Both the position numbers and the translations under genes were made by a program. The notes under the pieces are model-generated. The model searched no databases and was not told the origin of the DNA. It saw only the letters and a list, made by a program, of their open reading frames with translations. Of a stretch of 64,000 nt of DNA, positions 17,239 through 23,875 are shown piece after piece (position 1 is the first letter of the stretch; each line of letters opens with the position of its first letter). Source of the stretch: an uncultured Bacteroidota bacterium (GTDB taxonomy: Bacteria > Bacteroidota > Bacteroidia > Flavobacteriales > Flavobacteriaceae); NCBI GenBank assembly GCA_902526165.1, contig CABZKA010000004.1, positions 1 to 64,000 of the forward strand, given 5' to 3'.

Positions 17239-19632
17239 ATGAAAATTTCTTTTAACTGGATAAAAGAACTTCTAAATCAAAAACTATCCGTCGATGAAAC
17301 ATCAGATTTATTGACGGATATAGGTCTTGAGGTAGAAAAAATTCATGAATATAATTCACAACCAAACACAGACTTAACGCAACTTATTGTTGGAAAAATT
17401 ATTAAGTTTGAAAAACATCCGAATGCCGATAAATTAAAGTTAACTTCAGTTGATATTGGCAGTAAAGAATTAAAGATAATTTGTGGTGCACCAAACGTAG
17501 ATATAAATCAAAATGTTGTTGTTGCACCTGTTGGATCCACTTTATTCACATATCAAAATGAAAAAATTAAAATCAAAAAAGCAAAGATTAGGGGTATTGA
17601 AAGTGAGGGCATGATTGTTTCTGAGTCAGAGATTGGTCTTAGTAACAAACATAAAGGTATCATAGTCTTAAATGGTAATCCAAAAATTGGCAGTGATTAT
17701 TCAAAAAAAATTAAAACATACAAGGATACAGTTTTTGAAATTGGCATTACACCAAATAGGTCAGATGCATTAAGTCATTTCGGTGTGGCAAGAGATTTAA
17801 GAGCTGCTATTTCACACAGAAATAAAAGAAAAATTGACTTAATTACACCGTCCATTTCAAATTACACTACACAAGGTGTAAATACAAATTTAACCATTAA
17901 CATAGTTGATTCATTTGCATGTAAAAGGTTTTGTGGATTAATAATTAAGAATATAAATATTACAAATTCTCACCCTGATATTTACAATAAGTTAACTGCT
18001 TTAGGTATTAAACCCATTAATAATATTGTTGATGTTACTAACTATGTAATGCATGAGTTAGGTCAACCCTTGCATGCCTACGATTTAGAGAAAATTAAAA
18101 CAACAAAAATTGAAATAAAGAAAATAAAGGATAAATCAAAGTTTACAACTCTTGATGAAGAAACAAAACATTATTCCAATAATGATCTATTTATTTGTGA
18201 TTCAGACGAACCAATTTGTTTGGCAGGAATTATGGGAGGACTACATCATTCTATCTCTGACGAAACAACTTCAATTTTTCTAGAATCTGCTTATTTTGAC
18301 CCTGTTGGAATAAGAAAATCTTCAAAAAAATCTGGAATATCATCAGATTCATCATATAGGTTTGAAAGAGGAGCAGATATTAATATGACGGACTATGCTC
18401 TAAAAAGAGCAGGTTCATTGTTGAAGGAATATTATAATGTTGAAATTATTTCTAATATAATTGATGATTATCCTAACAAAATTGAAGAAAAAAATATTTA
18501 TATAAATTTTGAAAATTTTAATAAAATTATCGGAGTTGATATTGACAAGGTTGAAATAAAATCAATTTTAAATTTACTAGACTTTAAAATAAATTCCATA
18601 AATGATACCAGTGCAGGAATTACTATCCCTAATTATAGACATGATGTCACAAGGGAATGTGATGTAATTGAGGAAGTTTTAAGAATATTCGGGTATAATA
18701 ACATTAAAACCTCTACTAAACTCAATATTTCCGTAATCAAAAATCAAAAAAAAGAATTGTATTATAATAATTTAATAGCAAGTTTTCTTTGCGATATTGG
18801 CTTTAATGAGGTAATGAATAATTCTTTAGTTAAAGAAAATAACATAAATAATAATATGTCAATAAATGTAATTAATTCAATTAGCCAAGATATTTCAGTT
18901 ATGAGAACAGAATTAGTTAGTGGTATTCTTAAAACAATCGAGTATAACATAAATAGAAAATCTACAAAAAACAATTTCTTTGAATTTGGTTCAACTTATC
19001 ACAACGATAAAGGAAATTATGAACAAAATAATAAATTGTCGATCGTGATGTGTGGAGATTTAATCAACAGCAATTGGTTACATCAAGAATTGAAATCAAA
19101 CTTTTTTTATCTAAAAAATATTGTATTAAATATTTTTGAAAAATTTAATTTAAGTTTCGATGAAGAAGTTATTGATGACGGAATTATTTTTAAAAAAGGC
19201 AATAAAGAGATATCATCAATTATAAGTTTAGACAAATCGTTAATGAATAAAGTATCAATAACAAAAGATATTTTCTGTGCTACTATTGATACAACGCAAC
19301 TTTTTAAAAATATTAGTAATAACTATTTTAATGTTAGTAAAGTATCAAAATTCCCAATAGTTAAAAGAGATTTCTCTTTTATTCTGGATAATGAAGTAAG
19401 TTATAAGAGTATTAAAGACTGTGTTTTATCAATAAATGATAACTTAATTAAAGAAGTGAAATTATTTGATGTTTTTAAAGACGGTAAAATTGAAAAATCA
19501 AAAAAATCAATCTCTATTTCGGTATTGTTAAGTTCAGAGCAAAAGACGTTGAATGAAAAAAACATTGAAAAAATCTCCAAAAAAATAGTGACTAGTATGG
19601 AAAAAAAATTTAATACTACTTTACGTGATTAA
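17239..19632 (+). CDS. pheT: Phenylalanine-tRNA ligase beta subunit
   Basis: A 797-residue PheT. It has the N-terminal MKISFNWIKELLN, the EMAP-type tRNA-binding domain (VGKIIKFEKHPNADKLKLTSVDIG and ICGAPNV, about 50-95), the B3/B4 editing domain with NNIVDVTNYVMHELGQPLHAYD near 270, the B5 domain (RGADINMTDYALKRA region) and a C-terminal ferredoxin-like anticodon domain (KFPIVKRDFSFILD). The partner pheS is not here, as in many Bacteroidota. I start at the ATG; a GTG three bases upstream would only add Met. The 3' end overlaps the converging ABC-F gene by four bases. Confidence 0.97.
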   Translation: MKISFNWIKELLNQKLSVDETSDLLTDIGLEVEKIHEYNSQPNTDLTQLIVGKIIKFEKHPNADKLKLTSVDIGSKELKIICGAPNVDINQNVVVAPVGSTLFTYQNEKIKIKKAKIRGIESEGMIVSESEIGLSNKHKGIIVLNGNPKIGSDYSKKIKTYKDTVFEIGITPNRSDALSHFGVARDLRAAISHRNKRKIDLITPSISNYTTQGVNTNLTINIVDSFACKRFCGLIIKNINITNSHPDIYNKLTALGIKPINNIVDVTNYVMHELGQPLHAYDLEKIKTTKIEIKKIKDKSKFTTLDEETKHYSNNDLFICDSDEPICLAGIMGGLHHSISDETTSIFLESAYFDPVGIRKSSKKSGISSDSSYRFERGADINMTDYALKRAGSLLKEYYNVEIISNIIDDYPNKIEEKNIYINFENFNKIIGVDIDKVEIKSILNLLDFKINSINDTSAGITIPNYRHDVTRECDVIEEVLRIFGYNNIKTSTKLNISVIKNQKKELYYNNLIASFLCDIGFNEVMNNSLVKENNINNNMSINVINSISQDISVMRTELVSGILKTIEYNINRKSTKNNFFEFGSTYHNDKGNYEQNNKLSIVMCGDLINSNWLHQELKSNFFYLKNIVLNIFEKFNLSFDEEVIDDGIIFKKGNKEISSIISLDKSLMNKVSITKDIFCATIDTTQLFKNISNNYFNVSKVSKFPIVKRDFSFILDNEVSYKSIKDCVLSINDNLIKEVKLFDVFKDGKIEKSKKSISISVLLSSEQKTLNEKNIEKISKKIVTSMEKKFNTTLRD

Positions 19633-21221
19633 TATATTTTTTCTCTGAGAATTTTTACTTTCTGATCATTTAAATATTCTTCAAAGGTCATTAGCTTGTC
19701 AATATAACCTTTAGTACCAATTTCGATCACTCTATTCCCCACAGAATTCGCAAATTGAAAATCTTGCGTAGTTAGGAAAATATTTCCTTTAAAGTTAATG
19801 AGAGAATTATTTAAGGCTGTAATACTCTCTAAATCCAAATGGTTAGTTGGTTCATTTAATATTAAAAAATTTGATTTCTCCATCATCATTTTTGATAGCA
19901 TGCATCTCACTTTCTCCCCTCCTGAGAGCACTGTGCATGATTTTAAAGCTTCCTCCCCGCTAAACAGCATTTTACCCAGAAAGCCTCTAATATAAACTTC
20001 TTCCCTTTCCTCATCATTTTTTGACCACTGCCTTAACCATTCAACTAAACTTAAATTTTTTTCAAAAAAACTATCATAATTTTCAGGGATATAAGATTTA
20101 GAAACTGTTGTACCCCATTTAACTTTTTCATTGCTTAATAGAATTTCACTGTAGAAGGAGTCAATGATTTTTGGATTTTTTGAGTAAAAAATAACTTTGT
20201 TACCATTATTAATAATGGTATTAAAATTACTAATTAGTGAAGTATTCATTGATTCAATATTAAGTATCTGATCACCTAAACTTCTTTCAATTTCAAAAAT
20301 TATCCCCGGGTATCTTCTTGATGATGGTTTAATATCTTCAATATTTAATTTTTCTATCATCTTTTTCCTTGATGTAGCTTGTTTTGATTTCGCGACGTTA
20401 GCACTAAATCTTGCGATAAATTCTTCTAATTCTTTCTTCTTTTCTTCAGCCTTTTTATTTTGCTGCGCTCTTTGTTTGAGAGCTAATTGACTTGATTCAT
20501 ACCAAAAAGTATAATTCCCAGAGTAATGTGATATTTTGCCATAGTCAATATCAGAAATATGAGTACAAACTGAGTCTAAAAAATACCTATCATGTGAAAC
20601 TACTATAACAGTATTTTCATAATTTGACAAGAAATGTTGAAGCCATTTTATGGTTTCAAAATCCAAATTATTTGTAGGTTCATCCATTATAAGAATATCT
20701 GGGTTACCAAAAAGGGATTGAGCTAATAAAACCCTTACTTTCAATTTTAAATCTATTTCTGAAAGTTTTGTACTATGAAGGCTTTCCTCGACACCTAACT
20801 GAGAAAGTAGAGATGCAGCTTCACTATCTGCATTCCATCCATCCATCTCCTCATACTTATTCTGAAGATCTCCAACCTTAATTCCATCCTCATCAGTAAA
20901 GTTCTCCTTAGAATAGAGAAAGTCCATTTCTTTTTTAATTTCATGCAACGATGAATTACCCATAATTGTAGTGTTCAAAACAGTATGATCATCATAAGCA
21001 TTTTGATTTTGCTCAAGAATTGACAATCTATTTCCTGGTTCAATATTAACAGAACCACTATTTGGCTGAATATCACCAGAAAGAACCTTCAAAAAAGTGG
21101 ATTTTCCTGCACCGTTTGCACCAATTATACCATAACAATTACCTTTTTTGAAGGTTACATTAACTTCATCAAATAAAATTCTTTTTCCAAATTGGATTGA
21201 TAAGTTGCTCGTGCTGATCAT
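19629..21221 (-). CDS. ABC-F protein (YbiT-like) with degenerate second ATPase domain
   Basis: A 530-residue soluble tandem ATPase, the same length as E. coli YbiT, of the ribosome-associated ABC-F class. The first domain is intact: GANGAGKST near residue 34, ILIMDEPTNNLD and VSHDRYF. The linker carries FSANVAKSKQATSRKK as in YbiT. The second domain lacks a P-loop; the equivalent stretch reads INNGNKVIFYSKNPKI. Its Walker B has Asn 456 (LILNEPTNH) in place of Asp and its switch has Gln 486 (TTQDFQF) in place of His, although LSGGEKVRC is kept. So only one site should hydrolyse ATP. A changed P-loop here may be usual in Bacteroidota; the other two changes look additional. It is last in a reverse operon with fsa and the SDR gene. 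Confidence 0.88.
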   Translation of the reverse strand: MISTSNLSIQFGKRILFDEVNVTFKKGNCYGIIGANGAGKSTFLKVLSGDIQPNSGSVNIEPGNRLSILEQNQNAYDDHTVLNTTIMGNSSLHEIKKEMDFLYSKENFTDEDGIKVGDLQNKYEEMDGWNADSEAASLLSQLGVEESLHSTKLSEIDLKLKVRVLLAQSLFGNPDILIMDEPTNNLDFETIKWLQHFLSNYENTVIVVSHDRYFLDSVCTHISDIDYGKISHYSGNYTFWYESSQLALKQRAQQNKKAEEKKKELEEFIARFSANVAKSKQATSRKKMIEKLNIEDIKPSSRRYPGIIFEIERSLGDQILNIESMNTSLISNFNTIINNGNKVIFYSKNPKIIDSFYSEILLSNEKVKWGTTVSKSYIPENYDSFFEKNLSLVEWLRQWSKNDEEREEVYIRGFLGKMLFSGEEALKSCTVLSGGEKVRCMLSKMMMEKSNFLILNEPTNHLDLESITALNNSLINFKGNIFLTTQDFQFANSVGNRVIEIGTKGYIDKLMTFEEYLNDQKVKILREKIY

Positions 21222-22852: not shown

Positions 22853-23875
22853 ATGATGAAACATATTTTATTCATATTAGTTTTTATTTTTTCATGTAAT
22901 CAATCATCTAAAGATATCCTAACATTAAGTATAAGCTCTAGTGATGTAATTTATACTAAAAACACTCAACTATCCCTCTCTTGTGAATTAAATGAGATTA
23001 ATATTGATAATGCCAACATTAAATACTTCTTCAATGACAAGGAGATAACCGAAAACATTTTATTATCCAATTCAAAGCTTGGAACTAATACAATCAAAGC
23101 CCAATTAAAGGTTGACGATTTAACATTAACAACAAAAAAAAATATTGACATATATAGTGATACTAAGCCAGTCATCTATAAATATGAAATACTTAATGAA
23201 TATCCCCATGACATATCATCCTATACCCAAGGCTTGGAATTCTATAAAGAATTTTTGTTTGAAAGTACTGGTTTAAATGGTTATTCGGCTATTAAAAAAA
23301 TAGATCTCTTTAATAATAAAGTTGTTGTGGAAAAATATTTAGATGATAAATATTTTGGTGAAGGCTTAACTGTTATTAATGACAATGTTCTTCAGTTAAC
23401 TTGGAAAAATAAAATTGGTTTCATTTATGATCCAAATAGTTTAGATCTTATTAATTCATTTAATTATGATAAAAATAATGAAGGATGGGGATTAGCTAAT
23501 GATAGTGAGTTTCTATATCTCTCTGATGGCTCATCTAAAATAAGAATCATTGATCCTGAAACCTTTCTTGAAATTGACTCTATTGAAATTGTTACAGAAA
23601 CAAAAAAAATCAAGAACATTAATGAATTAGAGGTTGTTGATAATTTAATTTACGCAAATACGTACCAATCGAATAAAGACGTTGTTTTGGTGATTGACAA
23701 GAATACGGGTAAAGTAATAGGTTTAGTAAACTTTGATGGTTTACGAAATAAAGTAAAAAAACACCCTGAATTGGATGTACTAAATGGAATTGCGTATAAT
23801 AAAAAGAGAAATAGTTTTTTTGTTACTGGAAAAAAATGGGATAAAATATTTGAGGTTAAAATACTTAAGGAATAA
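22853..23875 (+). CDS. Glutaminyl-peptide cyclotransferase family lipoprotein
   Basis: A 340-residue exported protein. The N-terminus [17 protein letters not shown] has a lipobox with Cys 15. Residues about 115-340 form the glutamine cyclotransferase beta-propeller (PF05096 type), shown by [65 protein letters not shown] and [20 protein letters not shown]. The family converts N-terminal Gln to pyroglutamate. About 90 residues ahead of the propeller ([17 protein letters not shown]) look like an Ig-like domain, common in flavobacterial members. Its end overlaps glyA by 11 bases. Confidence 0.88.

Follow-up and report, generated by a model that had tools for sequence, protein, structure and literature searches.

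Does an ATP-binding cassette (ABC) protein of the ABC-F family need two working ATP sites? The question is raised by a gene in the window, by which we mean the whole stretch of DNA analysed here, the first 64,000 nucleotides of contig CABZKA010000004.1 (assembly GCA_902526165.1) from an uncultured bacterium of the family Flavobacteriaceae. An initial annotation had placed an ABC-F open reading frame (ORF) at 19629-21221 and proposed that the second of its two nucleotide-binding domains (NBDs) has lost its ATPase motifs, leaving one site to work. The ORF itself is confirmed, on the minus strand: it runs from an ATG start over 530 codons and encodes 530 amino acids, and the plus-strand reading is riddled with stops. 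From the comparisons below we consider it fairly probable that the product is a functional, selectively maintained member of the YbiT/YkpA branch of ABC-F with one working ATP site, and it appears to stand at the far end of an old trend of site erosion. Its features are given one per line, with motif columns set by alignment to E. coli K-12 YbiT (L180, NP_415341) and counts taken over 178 distinct YbiT rows, two of which do not reach the NBD1 P-loop.

19629..21221, minus strand: ABC-F gene of the YbiT/YkpA type, from the ORF and from profile and PDB matches
20571..21221, minus strand: NBD1, residues 1-217 (approximate border), best Pfam PF00005 stretch 18-184
21096..21122, minus strand: intact NBD1 P-loop GANGAGKST, residues 34-42; Lys in 176/176 rows that cover the column
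20742..20756, minus strand: degenerate NBD1 signature IDLKL, residues 156-160, at the LSGGQ position; Ser in 13/178 rows, second Gly in 5/178
20679..20696, minus strand: intact NBD1 Walker B and catalytic Glu (D180, E181); 178/178
20592..20594, minus strand: intact NBD1 switch His210; 178/178
20313..20552, minus strand: ribosome-facing linker, residues 224-303, PF12848 (P-site tRNA interaction motif)
19632..20285, minus strand: NBD2, residues 313-530 (approximate border), from alignment and model
20157..20183, minus strand: dead NBD2 P-loop SKNPKIIDS, residues 347-355, aligned to GTNGVGKST of E. coli YbiT
20082..20084, minus strand: NBD2 Q-loop position, Glu380 and not Gln; Gln in 5/178
19914..19928, minus strand: intact NBD2 signature LSGGE, residues 432-436; SGGE in 178/178
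19851..19868, minus strand: NBD2 Walker B FLILNE, with Asn456 for Asp and Glu457 kept, from alignment
19764..19766, minus strand: NBD2 switch position, Gln486 for His, from alignment

As the annotation had stated, NBD2 is without a P-loop, its Walker B Asp and switch His are replaced by Asn456 and Gln486, and its LSGGE signature is kept. The P-loop columns hold SKNPKIIDS, Walker A is matched only by GANGAGKS at residue 34, and the pattern GK[ST] occurs once, at residue 39; the two replaced residues are encoded by AAT (Asn456, 19854-19856) and CAA (Gln486, 19764-19766). Three further changes had been overlooked: the degenerate NBD1 signature, Glu380 in NBD2, and a deletion of the residues that match the A-loop region of E. 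coli NBD2, where the A-loop assignment is our reading of the alignment. Because each site of an ABC dimer combines one domain's Walker motifs and A-, Q- and H-loops with the signature of the other domain (passages of PMC7756269), all of the decayed motifs share one composite site and the intact ones lie in the other, the exception being Glu457, which is retained. The degenerate NBD1 signature makes the asymmetry coherent.

The annotation would have given way to a P-loop recovered by better alignment or to sequence errors at codons 456 and 486. Read through the genetic code, both codons are one base from a canonical one, which is the point in favour of a sequencing or assembly error. However, N456, Q486 and the missing P-loop are common to the six nearest relatives, which come from other genomes and are 90-98% identical (L007-L012), so that seven genomes in all carry the three changes. 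A P-loop was absent from all six frames of 20050-20330, which leaves no copy hidden by a frameshift, and the lost loop is flanked by columns that are invariant in a 52-row alignment (K342, Y357, W369, and G370 among them), which argues against misalignment. As six relatives from other genomes agree and no frame holds a P-loop, we rejected sequencing error and frameshift, and regard the former as excluded for practical purposes.

The annotation had also treated the single working site as a property of one protein, and here the wider comparison changes the picture: the asymmetry is well supported across the 178 rows, and the P-loop decay is older and wider than this gene. The rows comprise the window protein and 177 loci, which remained of 190 after removal of the window itself (L001), other ABC ATPase matches of its own genome (L002-L006), other ABC-Fs (L177-L179), and four duplicates. 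In the site that is intact in the window protein, the NBD1 Q-loop Gln is present in 177 of 178 rows (with one gap) and the remaining motifs are invariant, as listed above. In the mirror site the P-loop Lys survives in 11 of the 178 rows and the third P-loop Gly in 5, along with the low Q-loop and NBD1 signature counts already given, and the Walker B Asp is kept in 161, the Glu in 155, and the switch His in 145. We further compared 26 representatives, for which six loci (L191-L196) were added after the 178-row count and used only there. A full NBD2 P-loop was found in four of them, namely E. coli, Pseudoalteromonas, and Vibrio, which are all of the gammaproteobacteria in the set, and one genome of the window's own phylum (G137). 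The remaining 22 all have a degraded loop, and they are nine Bacillota, two Fusobacteriota, three named flavobacteria, Bacteroides, Parabacteroides, Persicobacter, a second genome of the phylum (G173), and four members of the window's genus including the window. In both sets the non-canonical motifs are confined to one composite site. The YbiT relatives form a graded series, from a full P-loop through a loop without its Lys to the additional loss of Asp and His, and the partly kept second sites look like halfway states. The decay of one site is not peculiar to this protein, but an old trend across several bacterial phyla.

This pattern also bears on how the family is defined. In passages of PMC11282234, ABC-Fs are introduced as having consensus Walker A and B in both domains and binding two ATPs; the window protein departs from that wording, as its NBD2 is without Walker A and without the Walker B Asp. 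Since the NBD2 P-loop Lys is found in only 11 of the 178 YbiT rows, it is the wording, as far as those passages go, that seems too narrow, and not the protein that seems misplaced.

Within the genus, the order of the later losses can be followed. The 19 sequences fall into three groups at positions 456, 457, and 486 (4 Asp-Glu-His, 8 Asp-Asp-Gln, and 7 Asn-Glu-Gln, the window's group), which is most simply explained if His-to-Gln preceded Asp-to-Asn. Residues 320 to 370 span a lobe that shortens alongside, from a median of 60 residues in other flavobacteria, the length also found in E. coli and three Bacillota, to 56 and 55 in the first two groups and 51 in the window's. A comparison across Bacteroidota, which the annotation had recommended, finds P-loop decay in nearly all rows; the Asp-to-Asn and His-to-Gln changes of this lineage are recent and local, with similar steps elsewhere. 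For the wider history we used a tree of 103 rows (100 of the 178 YbiT rows and 3 other ABC-Fs), built by a quick method with the P-loop, 456, 457, and 486 columns excluded and with several long branches. Counted as minima without direction of change, it calls for 4 changes of the P-loop Lys, 8 of the NBD2 Asp, 10 of the Glu, and 8 of the switch His. Combined loss of Lys, Asp, and His is seen in 11 of the 178 rows and at four places on the tree, with seven rows in the window clade and the others at L067 with L074, at L138, and at L168. Two ideas about these losses were examined. In seven independent pairs for Asp and His loss, His differed in the same way in 2.3 and in the opposite way in 1.3 on average, which is not significant, and Glu with His gave a like result, so a coupled loss of Asp and His is not supported by this comparison. 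A tie between the triple loss and genome streamlining does not hold, because L138 sits in a genome of 5.2 Mb (G122).

Is the eroded protein still under constraint? We estimated dN/dS, the ratio of nonsynonymous to synonymous substitution rates, with our own script of the pairwise Nei-Gojobori method, for which pairs are non-independent and dS averages above 1 beyond the closest group. Among the window protein and its five closest relatives, mean dN/dS was 0.029 for NBD1, 0.003 for the linker, the lowest of the regions compared, and 0.064 for NBD2, within which the stretch from the signature to Walker B reached 0.009 and the dead P-loop lobe 0.159. The protein is maintained by strong purifying selection, foremost in the linker, and constraint is looser at the lost ATP place. 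YbiT is also the only ABC-F found in the genus (23 genomes, 55-87% complete): PF12848 matched once per genome in 19 of them, each time within the YbiT gene, and not in the other four, which are 55-69% complete. Other matches to the window protein in its own genome are weak (24-39 bits). By comparison, two or three matches each at an E-value of 1e-60 were found in 14 genomes from other genera of the family, and we take the additional ones, which are 28-33% identical, to be other ABC-Fs. The YbiT of one of the family's genomes (L026 in G023) is identical to a protein of Zobellia uliginosa (L045), which makes Flavobacteriaceae the probable family.

What would a protein with these motifs do? The working site would consist of the P-loop, Q-loop, Asp180-Glu181, and His210 of NBD1 together with the LSGGE signature of NBD2, while its mirror (P-loop, Q-loop, Asp, and switch His of NBD2 with the NBD1 signature) would no longer bind ATP in the usual way, leaving NBD2 as a structural half or scaffold and a signature donor. 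One ATP, bound to NBD1 with the signature of NBD2 as its cap, would close the two NBDs; the closed protein would occupy the ribosomal E site with its linker near the peptidyl-transferase centre, and a single hydrolysis at Glu181 would open the dimer and release it. The motif pattern, phylogeny, and selection behind this model come from our own analysis, and nucleotide binding, binding to and release from the ribosome, and function on stalled ribosomes are modelled by analogy, the ribosome steps with other ABC-Fs (passages of PMC11282234 and PMC8782954). With one site eroded, the protein is thus likely to spend one ATP per ribosome cycle, against the two that textbook accounts assume.

An alternative that we judge unlikely is that the second site is degenerate and still binds ATP, which stays there without hydrolysis and glues the dimer, as has been proposed for asymmetric ABC exporters. 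Passages of PMC7756269 report indirect evidence that ATP in the degenerate site acts as a lasting glue in type I exporters, and describe that Pdr5 has one site changed in all four motifs and that restoring the canonical residues abolished activity. The NBD2 Asp and His are, moreover, still kept by most YbiT relatives. On the other side, the phosphate-loop glycines have been replaced besides the Lys, and the window clade has also lost the A-loop region and shortened the lobe to 51 residues from 60. Some observations do weigh against a single working ATP site. Glu457 is kept and most relatives retain the NBD2 Asp and His, so the second site may weakly hold nucleotide in some lineages. Three of the nine Bacillota keep the P-loop Lys (Paenibacillus, with GPNGLAKTV, Cytobacillus, and Pusillibacter), as do both Fusobacteriota and the loci of G173 and its relatives (L116-L119, with GPNDLAKTT and similar loops); the NBD1 signature is LSGGE in Peptoclostridium and retains its Ser in Bacteroides, Parabacteroides, Persicobacter, and L116 from G173. 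The counts are also not a fair sample of bacteria: they are strongly flavobacterial, with 104 rows in a group that we call Flavobacteriaceae outside the genus and assigned by locus number, and 80 loci (L036-L115) that are the best 80 of 581 by similarity to the window, whose titles are mostly flavobacterial, with one Sphingobacterium and some given just as Bacteroidetes or Bacteroidia. Finally, an AlphaFold model, run on 52 sequences with an alignment (A1) of 51 of those 80 loci, is of modest quality (mean predicted local distance difference test score, pLDDT, 75.8; predicted template modelling score, pTM, 0.46), and neither closure nor filling of the pocket can be read from it. Its domain placement is unreliable and we used only the within-domain fold, in which strand 342-346 and helix 350-362, flanking the P-loop place in NBD2, are kept.

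Another possibility, that under relaxed constraint a streamlined genome is losing the gene and its ATPase no longer works, is highly improbable. The genus assemblies are indeed small (0.9-1.5 Mb at the stated completeness), and the dead lobe is both the fastest region and shrinking. However, no region has a dN/dS anywhere near 1, the values being lowest in the linker and around the NBD2 signature, the catalytic motifs of NBD1 are all intact, the gene is present in 19 of the 23 genomes despite their incompleteness, and no genus or family match contains an internal stop. Selection and presence across the genus led us to reject a decaying pseudogene, and a maintained protein with one working ATP site is the reading that we carry forward.

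Several better-known ABC proteins bear comparison. E. coli YbiT (NP_415341; seen as an EQ2 mutant on the ribosome in 9njf and other entries) shares domain order, linker, and length with the window protein, and its NBD1 signature is degenerate too (VAPGW), but it keeps the full NBD2 P-loop, Q-loop Gln, Asp-Glu, and switch His. B. subtilis YkpA/YbiT belongs to the same subfamily as the window protein, as passages of PMC6723617 have it, and loss of ykpA causes mild stalling on charged stretches, through which YkpA helps ribosomes (passages of PMC11381351). The YbiT-type protein of Bacillus velezensis (L187), a relative of B. subtilis, reads GRNELAVTT and thus is without the NBD2 P-loop Lys and two of the glycines, although unlike the window protein it keeps the NBD2 Asp-Glu and His. 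With the Lys already missing from L187, a YbiT is probably still able to work when its second P-loop is damaged. Mycobacterium tuberculosis EttA is likewise an E-site factor with two NBDs, but passages of PMC8782954 describe conserved motifs and bound nucleotide at both of its sites, which are engaged in a staggered manner before hydrolysis. The closest parallel for the asymmetry lies in asymmetric ABC exporters such as Pdr5, ABCB2/B3, and ABCC7, in which the odd motifs of both domains also cluster in one composite site. These are membrane transporters, and the P-loop changes named in passages of PMC7756269 are single residues (Lys to Cys in Pdr5, which is counted there among the most deviant exporters, and Lys to Arg in ABCG5/G8), whereas the window protein has lost the whole loop.

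One-composite-site degeneration is thus known from membrane exporters, and we found no report of a one-site ABC-F in the open-licence literature, to which our search was limited. In the main text of PMC6723617 and PMC11381351, supplements and figures aside, the word "degenerate" does not occur, and "Walker" occurs once in the former, within a reference title, and not in the latter. Should the YkpA-type branch prove to have one working site, an E-site cycle would do without a second ATP, the staggered two-site engagement described in passages of PMC8782954 for M. tuberculosis EttA would not be general, and a single Glu-to-Gln change should suffice to trap YkpA-type proteins. The NBD2 catalytic Glu also varies in nature: it is Thr in Bacteroides (L181) and Parabacteroides (L183), and Gln in several relatives (L132, L142, L144, L185, and L192-L194), and we regard these as natural equivalents, at one site, of the EQ change made in the laboratory. 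The graded series of P-loop, Asp, and His states in genera such as Bacillus and Flavobacterium makes the role of the second site directly testable, and the window's genus is a useful end point of the series because YbiT is the only ABC-F found there.

The dead loop itself is conserved. In the 104 Flavobacteriaceae-grouped rows its columns hold Ser (103), Lys/Arg (103), Ser (99), Arg/Lys (104), Ala (103), Phe (102), and Tyr (103), which suggests a role other than ATP binding. A bolder proposal, which we think quite doubtful, is that the whole YkpA-type branch in Bacillota, Bacteroidota, and Fusobacteriota runs on a one-ATP cycle in which a built-in protein lock has replaced the lost ATP. Within the flavobacterial motif S-[KR]-D-S-[RK]-A-T-T-A-F-Y, an invariant basic residue (Lys351 in the window protein) would pair with Asp157, the acidic residue in place of the NBD1 signature Ser, and half of the dimer would stay pre-closed while one site alone opens and shuts. 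Across the 178 rows, 126 combine a basic with an acidic residue in these columns, 4 have the basic residue only, 18 the acidic one only, and 30 neither; across phylogenetically independent pairs the median p was 1, and when columns were ranked by mutual information with the P-loop column, the NBD1 column came 55th of 311. We therefore keep a Lys351-Asp157 salt bridge in place of ATP only as a proposal.

Placement in the YbiT/YkpA branch rests on several lines of comparison. The protein has the tandem ABC domains and linker of ABC-Fs, with two PF00005 stretches and PF12848 at 71 bits (cut-off 25.9), and E. coli YbiT is its top solved relative both by sequence in the PDB and by fold with Foldseek, where TM-scores are low (best 0.45). 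On the 103-row tree the 100 YbiT rows and the 3 other ABC-Fs are split at a support of 100, at a point near the root where long branches converge. The best NCBIfam model is NF011646, which we take to be the YbiT model although its record names only "ABC-F family ATPase"; the window protein scores 575.9 bits and does not reach the curated cut-off of 762. None of the 148 genomes drawn from the phylum reaches it either, and the model seems tuned to a different YbiT type. By our own count, 44 of these 148 genomes have a YbiT-level match of at least 551 bits, the others having weaker ones (at most 447 bits) or none at an E-value of 1e-120. Relatives of the window's YbiT type carry only a general name in database records, which together with the scores below cut-off may explain why the trend has been overlooked. 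A scan confirmed no relatives of the window protein in viral contigs. Two loci of the phylum (L123 from G137 and L124 from G190) have a full NBD2 P-loop, GNNGVGKTT, with LPTDL in the NBD1 signature region of L123. Their branch is long and apart from the other rows of the phylum, and they could represent a second YbiT type, perhaps acquired separately.

We read the gene context of ybiT as incidental. In a row of three genes, ybiT comes after a short-chain dehydrogenase gene and a transaldolase-family gene, and the row converges on pheT, whose stop end is overlapped by the 3' end of ybiT by four bases (19629-19632). Neighbouring ORFs of equal or near-equal length recur in the same order in L036, and not in L040. 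ORFs of 530 and 798 codons in L036 show the same tail overlap as ybiT and pheT. Upstream of ybiT, past the short-chain dehydrogenase and transaldolase-family genes, positions 22853-23875 encode a glutamine cyclotransferase-family protein (PF05096).

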